From contig NZ_CP025096.1 of NCBI RefSeq assembly GCF_002831565.1, positions 2,023,027 through 2,087,026 of the forward strand: a stretch of DNA of 64,000 nt. Reading direction: 5' to 3'. Numbering within the stretch: position 1 is the stretch's first letter; the number at the start of each line of letters is the position of its first letter. This stretch comes from Spirosoma pollinicola. Its GTDB lineage: Bacteria > Bacteroidota > Bacteroidia > Cytophagales > Spirosomataceae. The notes below the pieces were generated by a model. That model saw only the letters and a program-made list of their open reading frames with translations, had not been told where the DNA came from and did not search any database. The translations under genes and the position numbers were made by a program. Below, one piece after another: positions 2,855-59,846 of this stretch.

Positions 2855-4492
2855 ATGCGTATCATTTGGCTTGTTTTATTTCTCAATATCAGTTTATTCA
2901 ACAGTACCGGTTTAGGCCAAATACTGAGCACATCAAATTTACCAATTATCATTATCAATACAAATGGGCAGTCCATACCTGACGAACCTAAACTCGTGGC
3001 TGAACTTCGTATCATTGATAACGGTGCGGGTAAACGCAACGATGTAGTAGACAAACCTGCTTTCATCAGTAAAATTGGCATTGAAATGCGGGGGGCAACA
3101 TCCCAACAGTTATTCCCCAAAAAGCCTTATGGTTTTGAACTTCGGGATAGTTCTGGTATAAATTCCATTAATGCCTCGCTGCTTGGCATGCCCTCCGAAT
3201 CAGATTGGGTCTTAAACGCAACCTACAACGACAAAACGCTTATTCGGGAAACGCTGACCTATGACTTAAATCGACAGATAAGCCCTTTTTTTACGCCCCG
3301 GTATCGCTACTGCGAGGTGATTTTAAACGGCAGTTACAATGGCGTCTACATTCTTTTCGAGAAGATCAAACGGGGCAAAAACCGGGTCAATGTTAGTAGC
3401 ATCAAACCAACTGATATATCGGGCGATGCACTGACAGGGGGCTATATTTTTAAACTAGACAAAACAGAAGGGTCGCCTTCACGGTCGTGGAACTCGCCTT
3501 ACAGAAGCTCAAATGGACAACTGATTCCCATTCAGATTGACCGACCAAAGCCCGAAGATCTTGCCGAAACCCAATTCCAGTATGCGAAACAATTCGTTAC
3601 CGATTTTGAGAATTCGTTGAAAGGCGCTCAATATCAGGATTCCACCACAGGTTACCGCAAATACATCAACGACGATTCGTTTGTCGATTATCTACTGTTA
3701 ACTGAGGTATGTAAGAATGTTGACGGTTATCGGTTAAGCAGTTATTTTTATAAAGATCGTGATAGCAAAGGAGGGAAGTTAATTATGGGTCCCATTTGGG
3801 ATTATAACCTCACCTATGGCAATGCCAATTACTGTAACGGCAACCCGTATCAGGGATGGGTCTACAGTTTCAATAGCATCTGCCCAACCGATACGTATCA
3901 AATGCCCTTTTGGTGGGACCGGTTGCTTAGTGACCGTCGCTTTGCCAACAATGTGCGTATCAAATATCAGGCACTTCGCAAGAATGTTCTCAAAACGGAG
4001 CGAATTCAGGCTTATATAGATTCGGTGGCAACCGAACTTACCGAAGCCCGAACCCGTAATTTCCAGCGTTGGCCCATTATTGGCACCTATGTCTGGCCAA
4101 ATGGCTATGTGGGACAAACCTATCAGCAGGAAGTTGACTACCTGAAATCCTGGGTTAAAAATCGGCTGGAATGGATAGACAACGCGATTATACCCTTTGG
4201 CTCAGAAGTACTGGCGACAGAACCTACTGATGACTATAAACTCACGATCAGCCCAAATCCATCGACCAGCGATGTTACTCTGTTTTATAAACTCCAGCAA
4301 CGTACTGATTTACAACTAACAATTACAGACGACAGCGGGCGAACCGTTCATAATACATCTTGGCTTGGTCAGCCAGCGGGCGAGCACAGACAAGTATTAT
4401 CTGCCGGGTCACTGCCCTCTACACCCGGAGTTTATTTCCTGCACTTGAATGCGAACGGACAACCTGTCAGCCAAAAAATGCTTCGCAATTAA
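2855..4492 (+). CDS. CotH-kinase family protein with type IX secretion C-terminal domain
   Basis: A 545-residue exported protein. Residues 1-21 form a signal peptide ending LGQ. The middle (about 70-400) is a CotH-like atypical protein kinase domain: KIGIEMRGATSQ, KKPYGFELRD, SDWVLNATYNDKTLIRETL, GVYILFEKIKRGKNRV and the metal-binding stretch MGPIWDYNLTYGN. CotH of Bacillus phosphorylates spore-coat proteins; bacterial homologues like this are presumed secreted kinases. The last 80 or so residues (YKLTISPNPSTSDVTL ... GVYFLHLNANGQPVSQKMLRN) are a type A T9SS sorting domain, so it should cross the outer membrane and be surface-anchored or released. Monocistronic. Confidence 0.88.
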   Translation: MRIIWLVLFLNISLFNSTGLGQILSTSNLPIIIINTNGQSIPDEPKLVAELRIIDNGAGKRNDVVDKPAFISKIGIEMRGATSQQLFPKKPYGFELRDSSGINSINASLLGMPSESDWVLNATYNDKTLIRETLTYDLNRQISPFFTPRYRYCEVILNGSYNGVYILFEKIKRGKNRVNVSSIKPTDISGDALTGGYIFKLDKTEGSPSRSWNSPYRSSNGQLIPIQIDRPKPEDLAETQFQYAKQFVTDFENSLKGAQYQDSTTGYRKYINDDSFVDYLLLTEVCKNVDGYRLSSYFYKDRDSKGGKLIMGPIWDYNLTYGNANYCNGNPYQGWVYSFNSICPTDTYQMPFWWDRLLSDRRFANNVRIKYQALRKNVLKTERIQAYIDSVATELTEARTRNFQRWPIIGTYVWPNGYVGQTYQQEVDYLKSWVKNRLEWIDNAIIPFGSEVLATEPTDDYKLTISPNPSTSDVTLFYKLQQRTDLQLTITDDSGRTVHNTSWLGQPAGEHRQVLSAGSLPSTPGVYFLHLNANGQPVSQKMLRN

Positions 4493-5449: not shown

Positions 5450-5529
5450 TAGGAGTGAGAAGCGAGTAATAGTAGGCTCAACGACAACAACGCATCTGCA
5501 CTTCTACTACTCGCTATTCGCTCCTAATA
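5447..5529. terminator. Imperfect inverted repeat between convergent genes
   Basis: The segment at 5449-5475 (TAGGAGTGAGAAGCGAGTAA then TAGTAG) is opposed by CTACTACTCGCTATTCGCTC at 5504-5523 and on to 5529. The arms differ by a few bases and a small bulge. It starts at the stop codon of the glycosyltransferase and ends just after that of the convergent gene, which suits a bidirectional terminator. Confidence 0.5.
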
Positions 5530-5536
5530 CTACCGT

Positions 5537-11487: not shown

Positions 11488-11526
11488 TTTATTCGAAAGC
11501 CAATTTAAAGTTAATAGGTTGATCTG

Positions 11527-11633
11527 AAAGGTTTTTTAACCACAGAGGCACAAAGAGCACAGAGGTTCAATAGGGTAGAAATTATCCCGTTAGATCTCTG
11601 TGCTCTTTGTGCCTCTGTGGTTAAAAAACCTTT
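11527..11633. repeat. Perfect 38-bp inverted repeat of the CACAGAG type
   Basis: The arm at 11527-11564 (containing TTAACCACAGAGGCACAAAG) is exactly reverse-complemented at 11596-11633, with a 31-base loop. It lies between the 3' ends of the convergent zinc peptidase and holin-like genes. Strings of the form CACAGAGGCACAAAGAG are known as dispersed repeats in many unrelated bacteria. Confidence 0.85.
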
Positions 11634-11663
11634 GTCGAATGCCAATAAACTATTTTATTGGCA

Positions 11664-14706: not shown

Positions 14707-15624
14707 ATGTCTATCCGAGTCCAGAATCTTACGAAAGAATACAATCACCAACGGGCTGTGAATCAAATTTCACTTACTGTGCAGGCGGGTGAAATCGTCG
14801 GTTTTCTGGGACCAAACGGTGCGGGCAAGTCCACGACTATGAAGATTGCAACAGGCTACCTCCCTCCTACCGATGGCACAGTGGAGGTAAATGGCTTCGA
14901 CGTCAGGACTCAGTCTATGGACGTTCGGCGGAGTGTAGGCTATCTGCCCGAACACAACCCACTTTATCTGGATCTGTACGTAAAAGAATATTTGCGTTTT
15001 GCCGGGTCACTGCATGGCATGCGCGGAACCGACCTGAGTCGACGCATATCAGATATGATCGAGCTGGTAGGTCTGGGCCGCGAACAGCACAAGCGTATCG
15101 GACAGCTTTCCAAAGGCTACCGCCAACGCGTTGGACTGGCGCAGGCTTTGCTGCATAATCCGCCTGTTTTGATTCTGGATGAACCAACAACGGGCCTCGA
15201 CCCGAATCAACTCGCCGAAATCCGTCAGGTTATTCGGGAAGCCGGACGCGACAAAACGGTGTTGTTCTCTACCCACATCATGCAGGAAGTAGAAGCCATT
15301 TGCGACCGTGTCATTATTATTAATCGGGGGGTTATTGTAGCCGATCAACCTTTAAGCCAGCTAAGAAGTGCCTCGGCAAATGCCAGCCTTGTTGTTGTCG
15401 CTGAGTTTGAAGGCCCATTAGCCAACCCGGATGTATTGACCTCCATACCGGGCGTTGAACGTGTGGAACCTATAGAGCGCGGACAATACCGGATAACCGC
15501 CATGCCGAACACTGACCTGCGGGTAGCTATTTTCCGGCTTGCCGCCGACCAGAACCTAACACTTGTCGGCCTGCGTCAACAGGAAAACTCACTGGAAGGA
15601 ATTTTTAAAGAGTTGACGAAGTAA
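14707..15624 (+). CDS. gldA: Gliding-motility ABC transporter ATP-binding protein
   Basis: A 305-residue ATPase subunit. Walker A GPNGAGKST is at residues 35-43, the signature LSKGYRQR at 134-141, Walker B VLILDEPTTGLDP at 154-166 and the switch His in LFSTHIMQEVEAICDR. The sequence follows GldA of Flavobacterium (needed for gliding in some species) and close relatives of the ABC-2 drug/nodulation type; the partners GldF and GldG are not beside it here. The final ACG AAG TAA runs into a GTAACGCGG palindrome, so the stop codon is part of that repeat. Confidence 0.82.
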   Translation: MSIRVQNLTKEYNHQRAVNQISLTVQAGEIVGFLGPNGAGKSTTMKIATGYLPPTDGTVEVNGFDVRTQSMDVRRSVGYLPEHNPLYLDLYVKEYLRFAGSLHGMRGTDLSRRISDMIELVGLGREQHKRIGQLSKGYRQRVGLAQALLHNPPVLILDEPTTGLDPNQLAEIRQVIREAGRDKTVLFSTHIMQEVEAICDRVIIINRGVIVADQPLSQLRSASANASLVVVAEFEGPLANPDVLTSIPGVERVEPIERGQYRITAMPNTDLRVAIFRLAADQNLTLVGLRQQENSLEGIFKELTK

Positions 15625-15696
15625 CGCGGACATCCTGTCCGCAGTGTAAGCGAGTTGCTCATCATTTTTACACTGCGGACAGGATGTCCGCGTTAC
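15621..15696. repeat. REP-type palindrome pair, copy A
   Basis: Two perfect 29-bp inverted arms (15621-15649 and 15668-15696) with an 18-base loop. Each arm is GTAACGCGGACATCCTGTCC plus GCAGTGTAA, and its core GCGGACATCCTGTCCGC is itself a small hairpin. It lies between convergent gldA and the RAYT gene and contains both of their stop codons. Confidence 0.92.
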
Positions 15697-16304
15697 TCGT
15701 GTCTACAGTATGTATGCGGCCAGTCCTCCCAATTGTCAACCAGACCGGATTTAACTGGATTGTTCAAGATGTAGGCAATTATCCGCTCGAATGATTTCGC
15801 ATTCCTTACAGAGTGATCATAACTCTCAGGTTGCCAAAATGGTTGGCCTACACGATTTAGTATCCGGTTTGCCCGAACAGCCATATACGTTTTTAAACGT
15901 TGTAGTATTTTATAAAACGGCACGCCTTCGCATAAATTCGTTAACAGCACATGAACGTGGTTATGCATAATGCAAAAGGCATGTAGATCATAGGAGGTGC
16001 CATCTCCGAAAAATAAACTACCCTTAACCAGTTCAGCAATTTCAGCATTCTGCAACCAGTTTATAGAACCCATACAGCTATCTATGTACTGATCAAACAG
16101 CACAAAGTATCTACCTTCCAGCCGTTTTTTAACAGCTTCTATCGACTCATTTTCTTTGATATGTTGTTGAACAAGCCGACTGTGTTCCTCCTGCATTTGA
16201 CGTAACACAGTGTAAGGAACAGTACCATTAAGCCTAAATGTGATAAAAAGCGTTTCGCCAGGCGGCATGATATGTGGCAAACGTCGGCGGTACGGTTCGT
16301 GCAT
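15693..16304 (-). CDS. REP-associated tyrosine transposase (RAYT, IS200-like Y1)
   Basis: A 203-residue single-strand DNA transposase from the ATG at 16304 (MHEPYRRRLPH). The HUH metal motif is in FCIMHNHVHVLL (His116 and His118), and a Tyr at 140 in LKTYMAVRANRILNR is the likely nucleophile; GQPFWQPESYDHSVRN and YILNNPVKSGLV complete the RAYT signature. RAYTs are single-copy domesticated relatives of IS200 transposases that act on REP palindromes. The gene is flanked on both sides by palindromes of one family. A longer frame to 16457 is rejected because its first 51 codons are repeat sequence. The stop codon TAA lies in the right arm of copy A. Confidence 0.9.
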   Translation of the reverse strand: MHEPYRRRLPHIMPPGETLFITFRLNGTVPYTVLRQMQEEHSRLVQQHIKENESIEAVKKRLEGRYFVLFDQYIDSCMGSINWLQNAEIAELVKGSLFFGDGTSYDLHAFCIMHNHVHVLLTNLCEGVPFYKILQRLKTYMAVRANRILNRVGQPFWQPESYDHSVRNAKSFERIIAYILNNPVKSGLVDNWEDWPHTYCRHE

Positions 16305-16332
16305 ATACAGTATACGCAGACCGTCGTAAAAA

Positions 16333-16404
16333 GTAACGCGGACATCCTGTCCGCAGTGTAGAAAGACGTTTAAGTTCATACACTGCGGACAAGATGTCCG
16401 CCCT
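16333..16404. repeat. REP-type palindrome pair, copy B
   Basis: The left arm GTAACGCGGACATCCTGTCC plus GCAGTGTA (16333-16360) faces TACACTGCGGACAAGATGTC plus CGC (16379-16401). One base differs from copy A (CCTGT against CTTGT). It lies immediately upstream of the RAYT start codon and may carry its promoter region. Confidence 0.88.
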
Positions 16405-16426
16405 AGATTATCTGTATTAGTCGAAA

Positions 16427-16502
16427 GTAACGCGGACATCCTGCCCGCAGTATACAAAAGCCATTCAAGCCTCTTACACTGCGGACAAGATGTCCGCCCT
16501 AC
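16427..16502. repeat. REP-type palindrome pair, copy C
   Basis: The left arm GTAACGCGGACATCCTGCCC plus GCAGTA (16427-16452) faces TACACTGCGGACAAGATGTC plus CGCCCTAC (16475-16502). It is a tandem neighbour of copy B, separated by 22 bases, and the two share the TGTCCGCCCTA-to-TATCTG flank. It ends just after the stop codon of the DUF4136 gene. Confidence 0.88.
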
Positions 16503-16503
16503 A

Positions 16504-17037
16504 CTATCTGGCTGTAGCCATTAAGGGGTACTGATCGAAAATAGATCGGACGATGCCTTTGAAATAGTTGTTCTTGAAGTTCTGGTTTCGCATCATTTTC
16601 GATGCGTATCCTTTCCAGATAACCTGATACGATTCGGCGTCGATGAGCGAGATCATCAACGTACCTTCATCGAGATTGTAGTCAATTCGTTTGTAGGTAG
16701 CGTCGTCATCTTCACGTACCACCCAGTCTTTAATGACCGGTTGCTGGTAGCCCCGGAAGCGCAGGTCAGACCGGAATATATTGTAGGATATCAACAGATT
16801 TGGGCTGCGGTTACTAACCCGATAACCCCGAGCTTCCATCTGGTGTCGAATTGCATCCTGAATATCGGAGCAGAGAAGTGTTGAATCGACGAATTCACAT
16901 TCTAAAAAATTAAACGATTCGTAGTTTTTGAAGTGCCCTTCGTAGCTGTAGTCATGCTCGACAAACAACCTACTCGGCGAGCAACCCGCCACCACAATTA
17001 CAGCCAGCGTAAACAGAATTCCGATGCACTTTTTCAT
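16504..17037 (-). CDS. DUF4136 lipoprotein
   Basis: A 177-residue envelope lipoprotein. The signal peptide ends in the lipobox VVAGC (Cys19). The body has the DUF4136 pattern: an early FKNYESFNFLE, a DIQDAIRHQMEARGYRVSNRSPNLLISYNI stretch (variable-length repeat of AI...L..KGY.....PDLLV) and a late MISLIDAESYQVIWKGYASKMM. The function is unknown; members are outer-membrane-associated lipoproteins. The stop codon is followed within three bases by REP copy C. Confidence 0.85.
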   Translation of the reverse strand: MKKCIGILFTLAVIVVAGCSPSRLFVEHDYSYEGHFKNYESFNFLECEFVDSTLLCSDIQDAIRHQMEARGYRVSNRSPNLLISYNIFRSDLRFRGYQQPVIKDWVVREDDDATYKRIDYNLDEGTLMISLIDAESYQVIWKGYASKMMRNQNFKNNYFKGIVRSIFDQYPLMATAR

Positions 17038-23350: not shown

Positions 23351-23369
23351 GTAGCGGTTTTCCAGCCGC
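23351..23369. repeat. Solitary REP-like hairpin with GTAG foot
   Basis: GTAGCGGTTTTCCAGCCGC forms a GCGG/CCGC hairpin preceded by a GTA(G) foot, and the outer bases CGTA/TACG extend the stem. It lies 11 bases beyond the aminotransferase stop codon. The shape matches the REP palindromes elsewhere in the window but the sequence family differs. Confidence 0.45.
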
Positions 23370-23380
23370 ATTACGTTTAT

Positions 23381-27093: not shown

Positions 27094-27432
27094 ATGCCAA
27101 AAATAATGACTATTAAAGACGCCCAAACTACCGTCGACGACTGGATCAAGACGGTTGGTGTTCGTTACTTCAATGAACTTACCAATATGGCCCAACTGAC
27201 CGAAGAGGTTGGGGAGGTAGCTCGTATCATTGCCCGGCGGTATGGCGAGCAGTCCGAAAAAGAATCCGATAAGAACAAAGACCTTGGCGACGAACTGGCT
27301 GATGTACTCTGGGTAGTCATTTGCCTAGCCAATCAAACCGGCGTCGATCTGACAGAAGCATTCCAGAAGAATCTGGACAAAAAAAACATCCGAGACGCCA
27401 CCCGGCATCTTGACAATGAGAAACTTAAGTAG
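27094..27432 (+). CDS. MazG-like nucleotide pyrophosphohydrolase
   Basis: A 112-residue all-helical protein from 27094 (MPKIMTIKDAQTTVDDWI); 27106 is an alternative start. The dimetal motif is LTEEVGEVARIIARRYGEQS (ExxE) with GDELADVLWVVICLAN (ExxD), the MazG/RS21-C6 signature. Members hydrolyse non-canonical or damaged NTPs. It follows the M16 gene. The stop codon TAG is the foot of a GTAGCGCGG palindrome, so the C-terminus abuts a REP element exactly. Confidence 0.88.
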   Translation: MPKIMTIKDAQTTVDDWIKTVGVRYFNELTNMAQLTEEVGEVARIIARRYGEQSEKESDKNKDLGDELADVLWVVICLANQTGVDLTEAFQKNLDKKNIRDATRHLDNEKLK

Positions 27433-27500
27433 CGCGGACATCCTGTCCGCAATGCTATATGTTAAATTAAATAGCATTGCGGACAGGATGTCCGCGCTAC
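27429..27500. repeat. REP-type palindrome pair, copy D
   Basis: Perfect 30-bp arms (27429-27458 and 27471-27500) with a 12-base loop: GTAGCGCGGACATCCTGTCC plus GCAATGCTAT. The distal part (AATGCTAT/ATAGCATT) differs from copy A but stays fully paired. The foot is GTAG on both strands. Confidence 0.92.
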
Positions 27501-38642: not shown

Positions 38643-39443
38643 TTAACTGGCATTTTTCTCCAGATAGTTTTCAATAACCTGCCTATTGTGCTCTAAATGA
38701 TGAAGTTGTAATTCGGCCGCGTTCGATTCAAAGGGGTCTATACCCTGTATCACCTTCATTCGAAGATCAAAAAGGTGTTCTCTATCGGCAGTAGCCGCTT
38801 TTCTGACCAGATCAATTTTAACCGCTTCTTCCTGAAATTTCTGTTTTGGGTTGAATAATCCATTCAATTCCGAGCATTGATGGCAAACACCCTGTTTGTT
38901 AATTAGGGCGCATCTACCTTCAAAAACATGAATCATTTTTGCCCGGCCCGTATGCAAATAATACTTCACCATGGCTTCGGTGCTATCAAGAATCTGCGCG
39001 ATTTCGTTGATCCTGAAATCATACACTTCTTTCAGCAAAAGGCTGAGCTGTTGTTCCAGAGGTAATGATTTGGCAATACAGGTAAAACAAAACGCAATAT
39101 GTTCTCTTATTTCGAATTGCCCCTGAAGTGAAGTGGCCTGAATGTGCATCGCCTGCTGAAAGAACGTCGGATTAGCTAAAGCGGCTTTTTTCGCAATGTC
39201 GGTCACGTTATCCACCCAGCGTTTTCTGGCTCTGAGATTATCTTGGGCCAAATTTGATGCGATGGCAAACAGCCAGGTTTTCAGCGACGATTGCCCCCTG
39301 AAGGACTCCAGTTTTTCAGTAGCTTTAATAAAGGTGTCATGGACAATATCCTCTGCGTCTGCTACGCTTGCCGTTATTCGCAGGATATAGGACTTCAGTT
39401 GTCCTTTTGATCGCTCAAATTCATCTACCAGTTCCTCTGACAT
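38643..39443 (-). CDS. Sigma-70 family RNA polymerase sigma factor
   Basis: A 266-residue sigma factor (region 2 ITASVADAEDIVHDTFIKAT ... FRGQSSLKTWLFAIASNLAQDNLRARKR; region 4 LPLEQQLSLLLKEVYDFRINEIAQILDSTEAMVKYYLHTGRAKM). The C-terminal tail carries CALINKQGVCHQC, a cysteine cluster seen in a subgroup of sigma factors paired with SRPBCC proteins. I use the ATG at 39443; a TTG in frame at 39455 is possible. The start codon lies inside a 33-bp inverted repeat, so translation may be limited by mRNA folding. The SRPBCC gene follows and is probably co-transcribed. Confidence 0.9.
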   Translation of the reverse strand: MSEELVDEFERSKGQLKSYILRITASVADAEDIVHDTFIKATEKLESFRGQSSLKTWLFAIASNLAQDNLRARKRWVDNVTDIAKKAALANPTFFQQAMHIQATSLQGQFEIREHIAFCFTCIAKSLPLEQQLSLLLKEVYDFRINEIAQILDSTEAMVKYYLHTGRAKMIHVFEGRCALINKQGVCHQCSELNGLFNPKQKFQEEAVKIDLVRKAATADREHLFDLRMKVIQGIDPFESNAAELQLHHLEHNRQVIENYLEKNAS

Positions 39444-47203: not shown

Positions 47204-47208
47204 AAGGG

Positions 47209-47252
47209 CAATACGGATACGAACCCAGGCCGTCAGGTTCGTATCCGTATTG
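47209..47252. terminator. Bidirectional hairpin after the PPOX gene
   Basis: CAATACGGATACGAACC (47209-47225) and GGTTCGTATCCGTATTG (47236-47252) form a perfect 17-bp stem with a 10-base loop between convergent genes. Confidence 0.85.
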
Positions 47253-47261
47253 ATACCAGCT

Positions 47262-54155: not shown

Positions 54156-54227
54156 CCAGACCACATATTTTTGACGTAACAATAAAATAGACACAACACC
54201 CTTACAATCAATTGTTTACAATTAATC

Positions 54228-54316
54228 TTTTGTCATCCTGACGGCAGGAGGGATCTTCGGCAAGTTGGAGCACTTCGTCTCGTCCGAAGATCCCTCCTGC
54301 CGTCAGGATGACAAAA
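54228..54316. repeat. GTCATCCTGACGG palindrome with 33-bp perfect arms
   Basis: TTTTGTCATCCTGACGGCAG then GAGGGATCTTCGG (54228-54260) is exactly reverse-complemented at 54284-54316, with a 23-base loop. It sits between the convergent SnoaL and serine hydrolase genes. Strings such as GTCATCCTGACGnnnGGAGGGATCT are a well-known dispersed intergenic repeat in many Bacteroidota genomes. Confidence 0.88.
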
Positions 54317-54389
54317 AATATGCCTTTTCAGGACAGAGTATAGCCATAATTTACACCACATAAGGCGTAAGCATAACAGCAGACCTGCT

Positions 54390-56795: not shown

Positions 56796-56874
56796 GTAAC
56801 GCGGACATCCTGTCCGCATAGCCATCAGCTAACCTGTAACAATTTTGGCTATGCGGACAGGATGTCCGCGCTAC
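56796..56874. repeat. REP-type palindrome pair, copy E
   Basis: GTAACGCGGACATCCTGTCC plus GCATAGCC (56796-56823) faces GGCTATGCGGACAGGATGTC plus CGCGCTAC (56847-56874) with one G/U-type mismatch and a 23-base loop. The distal bases (ATAGCC/GGCTAT) differ again from copies A and D but pair perfectly. Confidence 0.92.
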
Positions 56875-58183: not shown

Positions 58184-58198
58184 GATCTGATTACACTG

Positions 58199-58347
58199 GC
58201 GCGGGTTGGTTCAGGCTGGCGCGGGTATTTACCCGTGCCTGTTTATAAAGTCAGTATTCACTGACGCAAGCGAACCGGGGCGCCGGACCGGCTTGCTATA
58301 TAAATAGGCACGGGTAAATACCCGCGCCAGCCTGAATCAACCCGCAC
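58199..58347. repeat. CGCGGGTATTTACCCG palindrome, about 47-bp arms
   Basis: GGCGCGGGTTGGTTCAGGCT, GGCGCGGGTATTTACCCGTG and CCT (58199-58241) face AGGCACGGGTAAATACCCGC and GCCAGCCTGAATCAACCCGC (58307-58346) with two mismatches. The loop has its own hairpin (AAGCGAACCGGGGCGCCGGA and so on). Each arm contains a small internal palindrome (CGGGTATTTACCCG), so the design is like the REP family. It separates the two serine hydrolases. Confidence 0.82.
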
Positions 58348-58411
58348 CATTTTACTAAAAAATCCGCTAATTTACAGGCAACAAATTCCTTATCCTCAAA
58401 CCTTTAGCTGT

Positions 58412-59764: not shown

Positions 59765-59776
59765 TAACGCCAACCA

Positions 59777-59826
59777 AAAAAGCTGCGGGGCAATCTGACT
59801 AACATCAGATTGCCCCGCAGCTTTTT
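59777..59826. terminator. Strong bidirectional terminator
   Basis: AAAAAGCTGCGGGGCAATCT plus GA (59777-59798) is fully reverse-complemented at 59805-59826 around a 6-base loop, with A and T tracts at the ends. It separates two convergent genes. Confidence 0.92.
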
Positions 59827-59846
59827 ATAAATCGTGTAGTTGACTT

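Follow-up and report, generated by a model that had tools for sequence, protein, structure and literature searches.

A single-copy RAYT (TnpA-REP) gene of Spirosoma lies between its own inverted REP pairs (REPINs), and the other copies of these REPINs, which mostly stand against stop codons, have probably been spread by the RAYT, a predicted cutter of single-stranded DNA at a hairpin tagged with GTAA or GTAG. All support for this reading is comparative, and it makes RAYT-driven movement of the REPINs likely. Judging from published TnpA-REP enzymes, the HUH tyrosine would act on the folded single-stranded REP, the tetranucleotide foot would guide cleavage, and the freed or copied hairpin would be joined elsewhere. 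Under the published guide model, GTAA would go with a different cleavage dinucleotide from GTAG. The gene is located in a window of 64,000 nucleotides (i.e., the whole stretch of DNA that was analysed), which corresponds to positions 2023027-2087026 of a genome of 8.79 Mb in a single contig (G000).

The RAYT gene and its REPINs

The RAYT coding sequence spans positions 15693-16304 on the minus strand and encodes 203 amino acids; a longer open reading frame (ORF) extending to 16457 results from read-through of REPIN B. The protein had been named a RAYT in the sequence-only reading, and the searches agree with this identity: the Y1_Tnp domain (PF01797) scores 30.5 bits against a cut-off of 23, the closest solved structure is E. 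coli TnpA-REP (4ER8, E=1.3e-7), and the NCBIfam model for REP-associated tyrosine transposases (NF047646) gives 77 bits, just below its cut-off of 80 (E=1.3e-21). The HUH motif (NHVH) and one catalytic tyrosine (in YILNNP), both read from the translation, can be aligned to 4ER8. The gene occupies a slot between two genes that face each other, i.e., an ABC transporter ATPase gene (14707-15624, plus strand) and a gene that we named lipoprotein-like from our own reading (16504-17037, minus strand).

The coordinates confirm the earlier claim that REPINs bracket the RAYT. REPIN A (15621-15696) lies between the 3' ends of the ABC and RAYT genes, and REPINs B (16333-16406) and C (16427-16502) lie between the start of the RAYT and the end of the lipoprotein-like gene. 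REPIN A consists of two exact cores in inverted orientation with GTAAC feet (GTAA on both sides), the left of which contains the stop codon of the ABC ATPase gene (15622-15624) and the right that of the RAYT (15693-15695). REPIN B lies 28 nt upstream of the RAYT start and has one mismatch in its right half, while REPIN C abuts the stop codon of the lipoprotein-like gene and has one mismatch per half; both carry GTAA as left foot and a less regular right foot, irregular in B. The statement that every copy has the core is exact for both halves of A but needs the mismatches just given for B and C. Two further elements, D (27429-27500) and E (56796-56874), lie 11 and 40 kb from the RAYT locus, at the coordinates reported before. 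The GTAG foot noticed in D was borne out, and D is the only element of the five with GTAG at both feet; its left foot contains the stop codon (27430-27432) of a 126-codon ORF, and it adjoins a separate terminator-like hairpin. E combines a left GTAA with a right GTAG foot. A lone tagged palindrome of another type, GTAGCGGTTTTCCAGCCGCATTAC, is found at 23351-23374 of the window, and a related-looking one stands in a G016 slot (L199).

The core, GCGGACATCCTGTCCGC (core I), was matched 20 times in the window with up to three mismatches, compared to 0.13 expected. As most half-sites score on both strands, these matches correspond to ten REP half-sites and one match at 4455. The whole genome contains 29 exact cores and 56 with up to two mismatches, versus 4 for the reversed pattern; chance palindromes are ruled out by these counts. 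The genomic matches fall into 30 places, so that dispersal beyond the RAYT locus is confirmed, and 26 of the 30 are outward-facing inverted pairs (79 of 109 places over all genomes), as expected from the BIME-like build of two inverted cores per element described earlier. The RAYT is flanked by inverted REPs which recur across the genome, and our data support its initial interpretation as a putative REP-associated transposase with inverted REP pairs of its own. Another reading would be an ordinary IS200/IS605-family insertion sequence with end repeats that recur by coincidence; the Pfam family is the same. G000 holds seven PF01797 matches, with the core nearby at this RAYT only; the best match of the RAYT is itself (100%) and the next 43%, and the other relatives are 36-43% identical and go with other REPs. 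Unlike an insertion sequence, the RAYT is present as one copy in the genome at a locus common to six species, REPINs are dispersed without the gene, and the nearest solved relative is TnpA-REP. An insertion sequence is thus a highly improbable explanation, and a free-standing one was rejected because of the single copy at a shared locus.

A full element is composed of GTARC, a core (GCGGACA, TCC, TGTCCGC), an inner arm, a loop, the opposite inner arm, the opposite core and GYTAC. Every core is able to form a hairpin with a 7-bp stem and a 3-nt loop, and pairing between the two cores of an element is possible as well. Over 192 core I sides, the foot reads GTAAC in 104 and GTAGC in 56. The two feet of one copy agree, as 65 pairs with plain feet comprise 35 GTAAC/GTAAC, 18 GTAGC/GTAGC and 12 mixed cases (orthologues included). 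Five single elements show the double-foot form GTARC-core-GYTAC; GTAA is found in one of the five and in most feet overall. The inner arms vary between copies, yet match within a copy, with 4.1 over all 20 distinct pairs versus 2.33 on swapping. Mere descent was considered as the source of this complementarity and is partly true, in that ATAGC and GTAGCC arms recur; the match holds in the 15 other distinct arm pairs of G000 as well (3.67 of 6 versus 2.15 on swapping, 0/5000). Pairs with short spacers (<20 nt, 29 of 79) have hardly any inner arm (mean 0.76 nt versus 4.54).

Several elements show other arrangements. An inner module like GTAGCCGAAGGCTAA recurs under different outer cores (L032, L033 and L077 in G000, L218 in G026, L219 in G032 and L199 in G016), as if the outer REP and the inner hairpin were exchangeable parts. 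At six places (L001, L012, L124, L139, L143 and L144), the core is reversed relative to the left foot (GCGGACAGGATGTCCGC beside GTARC), as if the hairpin had been flipped in place. Moreover, mosaic elements join a longer-type left REP with GGGCTGGCG..CCAGC(A)TC to a core I right half (L013, L104, L111, L137, L146 and L151).

REP cores and RAYT groups across the genus

Exact core I was found in 13 of the 59 genomes searched, all of them among the 36 genomes of the same genus, and in 0 of the 23 genomes outside it. The two genomes with a close RAYT hold 29 (G000) and 49 (G032) exact copies, while the other 34 show a median of 0 and a maximum of 15; core I is thus not equally abundant where the RAYT is lacking, which is the comparison that the sequence-only reading had proposed as a check. 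In G032, 51 exact cores were found, two of which were left out as a presumed overlap of contig ends. The same element stands at 39242 and 8848381 (L083, L114), near both contig ends, probably through an untrimmed circular contig overlap, and as the 300 bases about it recur, the two occurrences were treated as a single element. Core I does not need a resident RAYT, since 11 of the 34 genomes without a close one hold 1-15 exact copies (up to 15 in G016).

A search with this RAYT gave 33 matches, which are spread over 20 of the 36 genomes and include several pieces of one and the same gene. Tagged hairpins with a group-specific core were present in the flanks of 23 of the 30 RAYT loci fetched. 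Specific cores could be assigned to RAYT groups I, II, III, IV, V and VI: core I belongs to the RAYTs in G000 and G032, core II of the group II RAYTs is GCGGGTGGAAACCCGC, core IV of group IV is CCGACCGTCCCGGTCGG, group V goes with ACAGCATCTTGCTGT, and group VI goes with ACGGGCTTCAGCCCGT-like or CGGACTTTAGTCCG cores. A tree of 27 RAYT proteins needs 8 changes of REP label (minimum 7), whereas shuffled labels change 18.7 times on average and were as low in 0 of 200 shuffles. Groups I, II, IV and VI each form one branch of this tree, while V and III do not. Furthermore, core copy number is higher in genomes with the cognate RAYT than in those without (one-sided Mann-Whitney; p=0.0035 for I, 0.0003 for II, 1e-6 for IV, 4e-6 for V and 1e-5 for VI). 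In this comparison, G035 was scored as having a group V RAYT from broken pieces, and G016 as V despite a one-base difference in its core; G009 and G013, where a different core accompanies the group VI RAYTs, were scored as lacking VI.

Cores also occur without their RAYT. Core II is present in 14 of 32 genomes that lack a group II RAYT, with up to 18 copies. In G016, no group IV RAYT was found, yet exact core IV is present 35 times, which exceeds the count in two of the five genomes with such a RAYT; because this genome is 94% complete, the gene might have been missed. Decay after loss of the RAYT would explain cores without a cognate RAYT. Taken together, our comparison of protein groups with flanking repeats shows that RAYT group and REP core are matched across the genus, with exceptions. 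Exact core IV copies number 75 in G026 and 79 in G035. At G000:C1:2791500-2797500 (L274), two further RAYTs, one of group V and one of group IV, are direct neighbours, and each is accompanied by a REP core of its own. One RAYT branch (L061 in G021, L069 in G004 and L070 in G027) has intact frames and, by eye, the same neighbour gene; no REP-like hairpin was found in its flanks in these three genomes.

Of the 16 species compared, 6 have a RAYT in the slot that separates the ABC gene from the lipoprotein-like gene, and 10 have none there. It is a core I RAYT in G000 and G032, which are 73% identical, and a core II RAYT in G004, G017, G023 and G027, which are 45-60% identical to the G000 RAYT over the aligned parts; the gene of G004 is broken by a stop. 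As one locus carries a core I RAYT in two species and a core II RAYT in four, the same locus goes with different REPs and, judging from its occupants, is an 'orthoswitch' as in Pseudomonas and Stenotrophomonas. With respect to the ABC gene, the RAYT has the opposite direction in G000, G032, G027 and G004 but the same direction in G023 and G017, i.e., it is inverted within the slot between species (RAYT slot, L045-L049, L055). Recombination between the flanking inverted REPINs could allow such an inversion. Several RAYT groups with their own cores in one genus, with I and II switched at one locus, provide a set for finding the residues that read the hairpin, and the same set is suited to studying how REP specificity changes.

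Stop codons and palindromes between convergent genes

For each side of a pair, ORFs of 120 codons or more that ended no further than 400 nt before or 120 nt after the foot were considered, and the longest was used. Such an ORF exists on 42 of 52 sides in G000, and 28 of these 42 stops lie within -8 to +1 of the foot, and in 8 cases the TAA or TAG of the foot is itself the stop; without stops inside the foot, the count is 20 of 34 sides. Over all genomes, 109 of 158 sides have an ORF (49 have no incoming ORF of 120 codons), and 73 of the 109 stops (67%) are at the foot, 27 of them inside it, where gene ends are crude ORF calls and the sides of orthologous elements are not independent. For core II, 9 of 16 sides in G004 dock in this way as well. 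Core-less GTARC pentamers in the G000 loci are equally close to a stop in 8 of 83 cases. E. coli REPs were reportedly placed close to stop codons by Liang and others in 2015.

The position at stops need not reflect targeting: elements may insert anywhere, and the survivors would be those that leave both genes whole. We hold this to be a real possibility, if somewhat short of an even chance. In its favour, the offsets fall off from the stop without a single preferred distance (over 137 sides, the stop is inside the foot on 29, separated from it by 0 nt on 16 and by 1 nt on 14, and the next counts are 7, 7 and 6), and the sequence upstream of the feet shows A/T richness and little G adjoining the foot, with no fixed target word. 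No obvious cleavage-site signature was seen in the element flanks split by foot type. Intergenic space that is harmless but distant from stops is, however, far larger, as 319 of 7311 intergenic side-positions in the window (4.4%, from crude ORF calls) lie at most 5 nt after a stop, compared to 67% of the sides.

Orthologous genes allow the stop to be followed across species. The ABC protein ends with K and a stop (TAA, TAG or TGA) at the same codon in 16 of 16 species; the foot forms this stop in five of the six RAYT-bearing species, and the foot of the G004 core lies 7 nt further on. At D and L021, the ends of the orthologous genes differ by no more than one codon, as judged by eye. At the empty site for L075, the two stops of G026 abut (AAGTAGTTAGG, 2 nt), where G000 has a 61-nt REPIN. 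Our comparison of orthologues shows that the feet dock on stops whose position is shared by species that lack the REPIN. Insertions would survive best between or just after stops, and between convergent genes a REPIN would replace a long palindrome of the kind typical of the genus there, with neither gene harmed.

Orthologous sites were sought for 11 of the 30 G000 places and for the RAYT slot in 14 of the 35 congeners. Slots with one flank aligned only, longer than 400 nt, with N, or at a second locus of the same genome were dropped, as was site E (L019), since its two flanks were not found together in any congener. The resulting 89 slots stem from ten G000 REPIN sites, which were chosen for core I in G000, and the RAYT slot. 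An inverted repeat reached by at most 1 of 100 dinucleotide shuffles is present in 70 of the 89, and in 60 of 77 without the sites L017 and L035 (slots include terminator-like hairpins). Allowing two mismatches (one for short cores), 11 slots contain core I, 10 core II, 6 core VI and 1 core IV, and the remaining 61 match none of the eight core patterns tried, of which 61 a further 44 are palindromic all the same. The slot thus persists as a palindrome while its sequence changes. At L021, slots were obtained from twelve congeners, eleven of them palindromic: two with core I, one core II-like and the rest other. Within the window, palindromes occupy 9 of 10 gaps between convergent genes (25-260 nt; 7 of 8 without A and D), 4 of 22 tandem gaps and 1 of 12 divergent gaps. 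Window and slots together indicate that palindromes between convergent genes are general here, with REPINs as the multi-copy kind among them, and these palindromes are probably bidirectional 3'-end hairpins, which may act as terminators. Unrelated long inverted repeats without a core I REPIN stand in convergent gaps of the window at 1691-1770, 5450-5536, 11488-11663, 47204-47261, 54156-54389 and 59765-59846; the longest inverted repeat in the window's gaps (51 nt) lies between same-direction genes at 58184-58411.

The palindromes might be primarily host 3'-end hairpins (bidirectional terminators or RNA stabilisers) under selection, with the RAYT as one source among others and any hairpin sufficient. 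The contrast between convergent, tandem and divergent gaps speaks for this, as do the many palindromic slots, 44 of which lack every core pattern tried. In alignable orthologous palindromes, mirrored changes that keep pairing make up 56 of 143 changed pairs (28 comparisons with shared sequences, which are not independent), and these likewise favour it, although they could reflect selection for the hairpin as well as correction of one arm with the other as template. Host function leaves unexplained, however, that one exact 17-mer core with a GTAR foot recurs 56 times and that core copy number tracks the cognate RAYT group; moreover, D stands beside a separate terminator-like hairpin, and the REPINs are without the T run of an intrinsic terminator. 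We thus regard host hairpins as a somewhat unlikely primary explanation and retain spread by the RAYT as the preferred one.

A bolder extension of RAYT-driven spread, which we consider rather unlikely, is that of a fixed slot with exchangeable content: REPINs would dock on stops and overwrite the resident hairpin, and cores would be converted in place after a change in RAYT specificity. Exact core II was found in 3 of the 89 slots versus 0.42 expected at 2000 slots per genome (p=0.009; p=0.053 at 1000), exact core VI in 2 versus 0.30 expected (p=0.036; 0.12 at 1000 slots), and exact core IV in 0 versus 1.09 expected, with the number of slots per genome being our estimate from the window; this amounts to a weak excess of other REP families in core I slots. 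At L011, the core I element of G000 has the foot GTAGA, found on this very side only among 192 core I sides and on none of the 24 core II sides examined in G004. In G031, G027 and G004, the orthologous sites carry core II elements that also read GTAGAGCGG, i.e., they share this rare foot. L036 and L075 have core I in G000 and core II in G004, and among the 20 G004 core II sites fetched (out of 32 exact cores), 2 correspond by orthology to core I places of G000. These cases, noticed after the fact, are no more than suggestive of in-place conversion. If true, a mobile element that rewrites host 3'-end hairpins and leaves the coding sequence untouched would be new; no description of palindrome turnover in fixed slots was found among the open-licence papers listed. 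Stop docking and palindrome exchange make it testable how REPs settle harmlessly and whether they serve the host as 3'-end hairpins.

Comparison with known RAYT/REP systems

A search of GTDB genomes gave 42 loci that encode relatives. Their hosts include Spirosoma itself as well as Hymenobacter, Larkinella, Fodinibius, Planctomycetes, Verrucomicrobia, Chloroflexi, Betaproteobacteria and others. GT[AG][AG]-tagged hairpins flank 15 of the 27 loci tested on both sides within 300 nt (chance level not estimated). The RAYT type is, as judged from these relatives, widespread. No report of a RAYT/REP system in Spirosoma was found among the open-licence papers listed. The judgement that such a system is fairly little described is fair for Spirosoma, but RAYT subclasses of Bacteroidetes are in print (PMC6006769).

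Among these subclasses, the Spirosoma RAYT shares NHVH, WQ and YIxNNP motifs with TnpA-REP subclass 2.4 (RAYT group 4); its NHVH, WQ and YILNNP fit subclass 2.4 (NH[IFV]H, WQ, YIxNNP) and also 2.7, whereas they do not fit 2.6 (YIH[QN]NP) (PMC6006769). Subclass 2.4 is known from Bacteroidetes and has long REPs with a 'double foot', i.e., a 5' tag and its reverse complement at the 3' end, a form matched by the five single Spirosoma elements (PMC6006769). In contrast to subclass 2.4, the fourth foot base in Spirosoma is mostly A (GTAA versus GT[AG]G), and there is no REP inside the RAYT gene (PMC6006769).

With the REPINs and BIMEs of Pseudomonas and Stenotrophomonas, the Spirosoma system has in common the REP-rayt-REP order, inverted REP doublets, coevolution of RAYT and REP, copy number following the RAYT, and the 'orthoswitch' (PMC2817692, PMC3686654); different REPs at orthologous RAYTs are described for both genera (PMC3686654). 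It differs in its Bacteroidota host, in having tens rather than hundreds of copies, and in clear evidence of other palindromes in the same slots of relatives (PMC2817692, PMC3686654). The GTAG REP families share with it the location between convergent ORFs, GTAG ends that give a stop codon, and head-to-head dimers (PMC3733652). According to that survey, GTAG ends often supply the stop of flanking ORFs, REPs of convergent ORFs are mostly at most 20 bp from both, and some dimers have complementary spacer ends (PMC3733652). Its GTAG repeats come from Proteobacteria, Cyanobacteria, Chloroflexi and the PVC group, with Bacteroidetes listed for CGTC repeats only, and a comparison of orthologous slots, as made here for Spirosoma, does not appear in its accessible part (PMC3733652).

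E. coli TnpA-REP (4ER8; PMC8266576) has in common with the Spirosoma system the enzyme family, a tagged hairpin and inverted REP pairs. E. coli REPs are bulged with a strict GTAG, and the enzyme tolerates no change of GTAG, whereas Spirosoma cores have a perfect 7-bp stem with a 3-nt loop and GTAA as the commonest foot (PMC8266576). Feet that give stop codons, convergent location, complementary spacers and coevolution of RAYT and REP have already been published, chiefly for Proteobacteria. Taken together, the Spirosoma system is one of a known type in a little-studied bacterial group.
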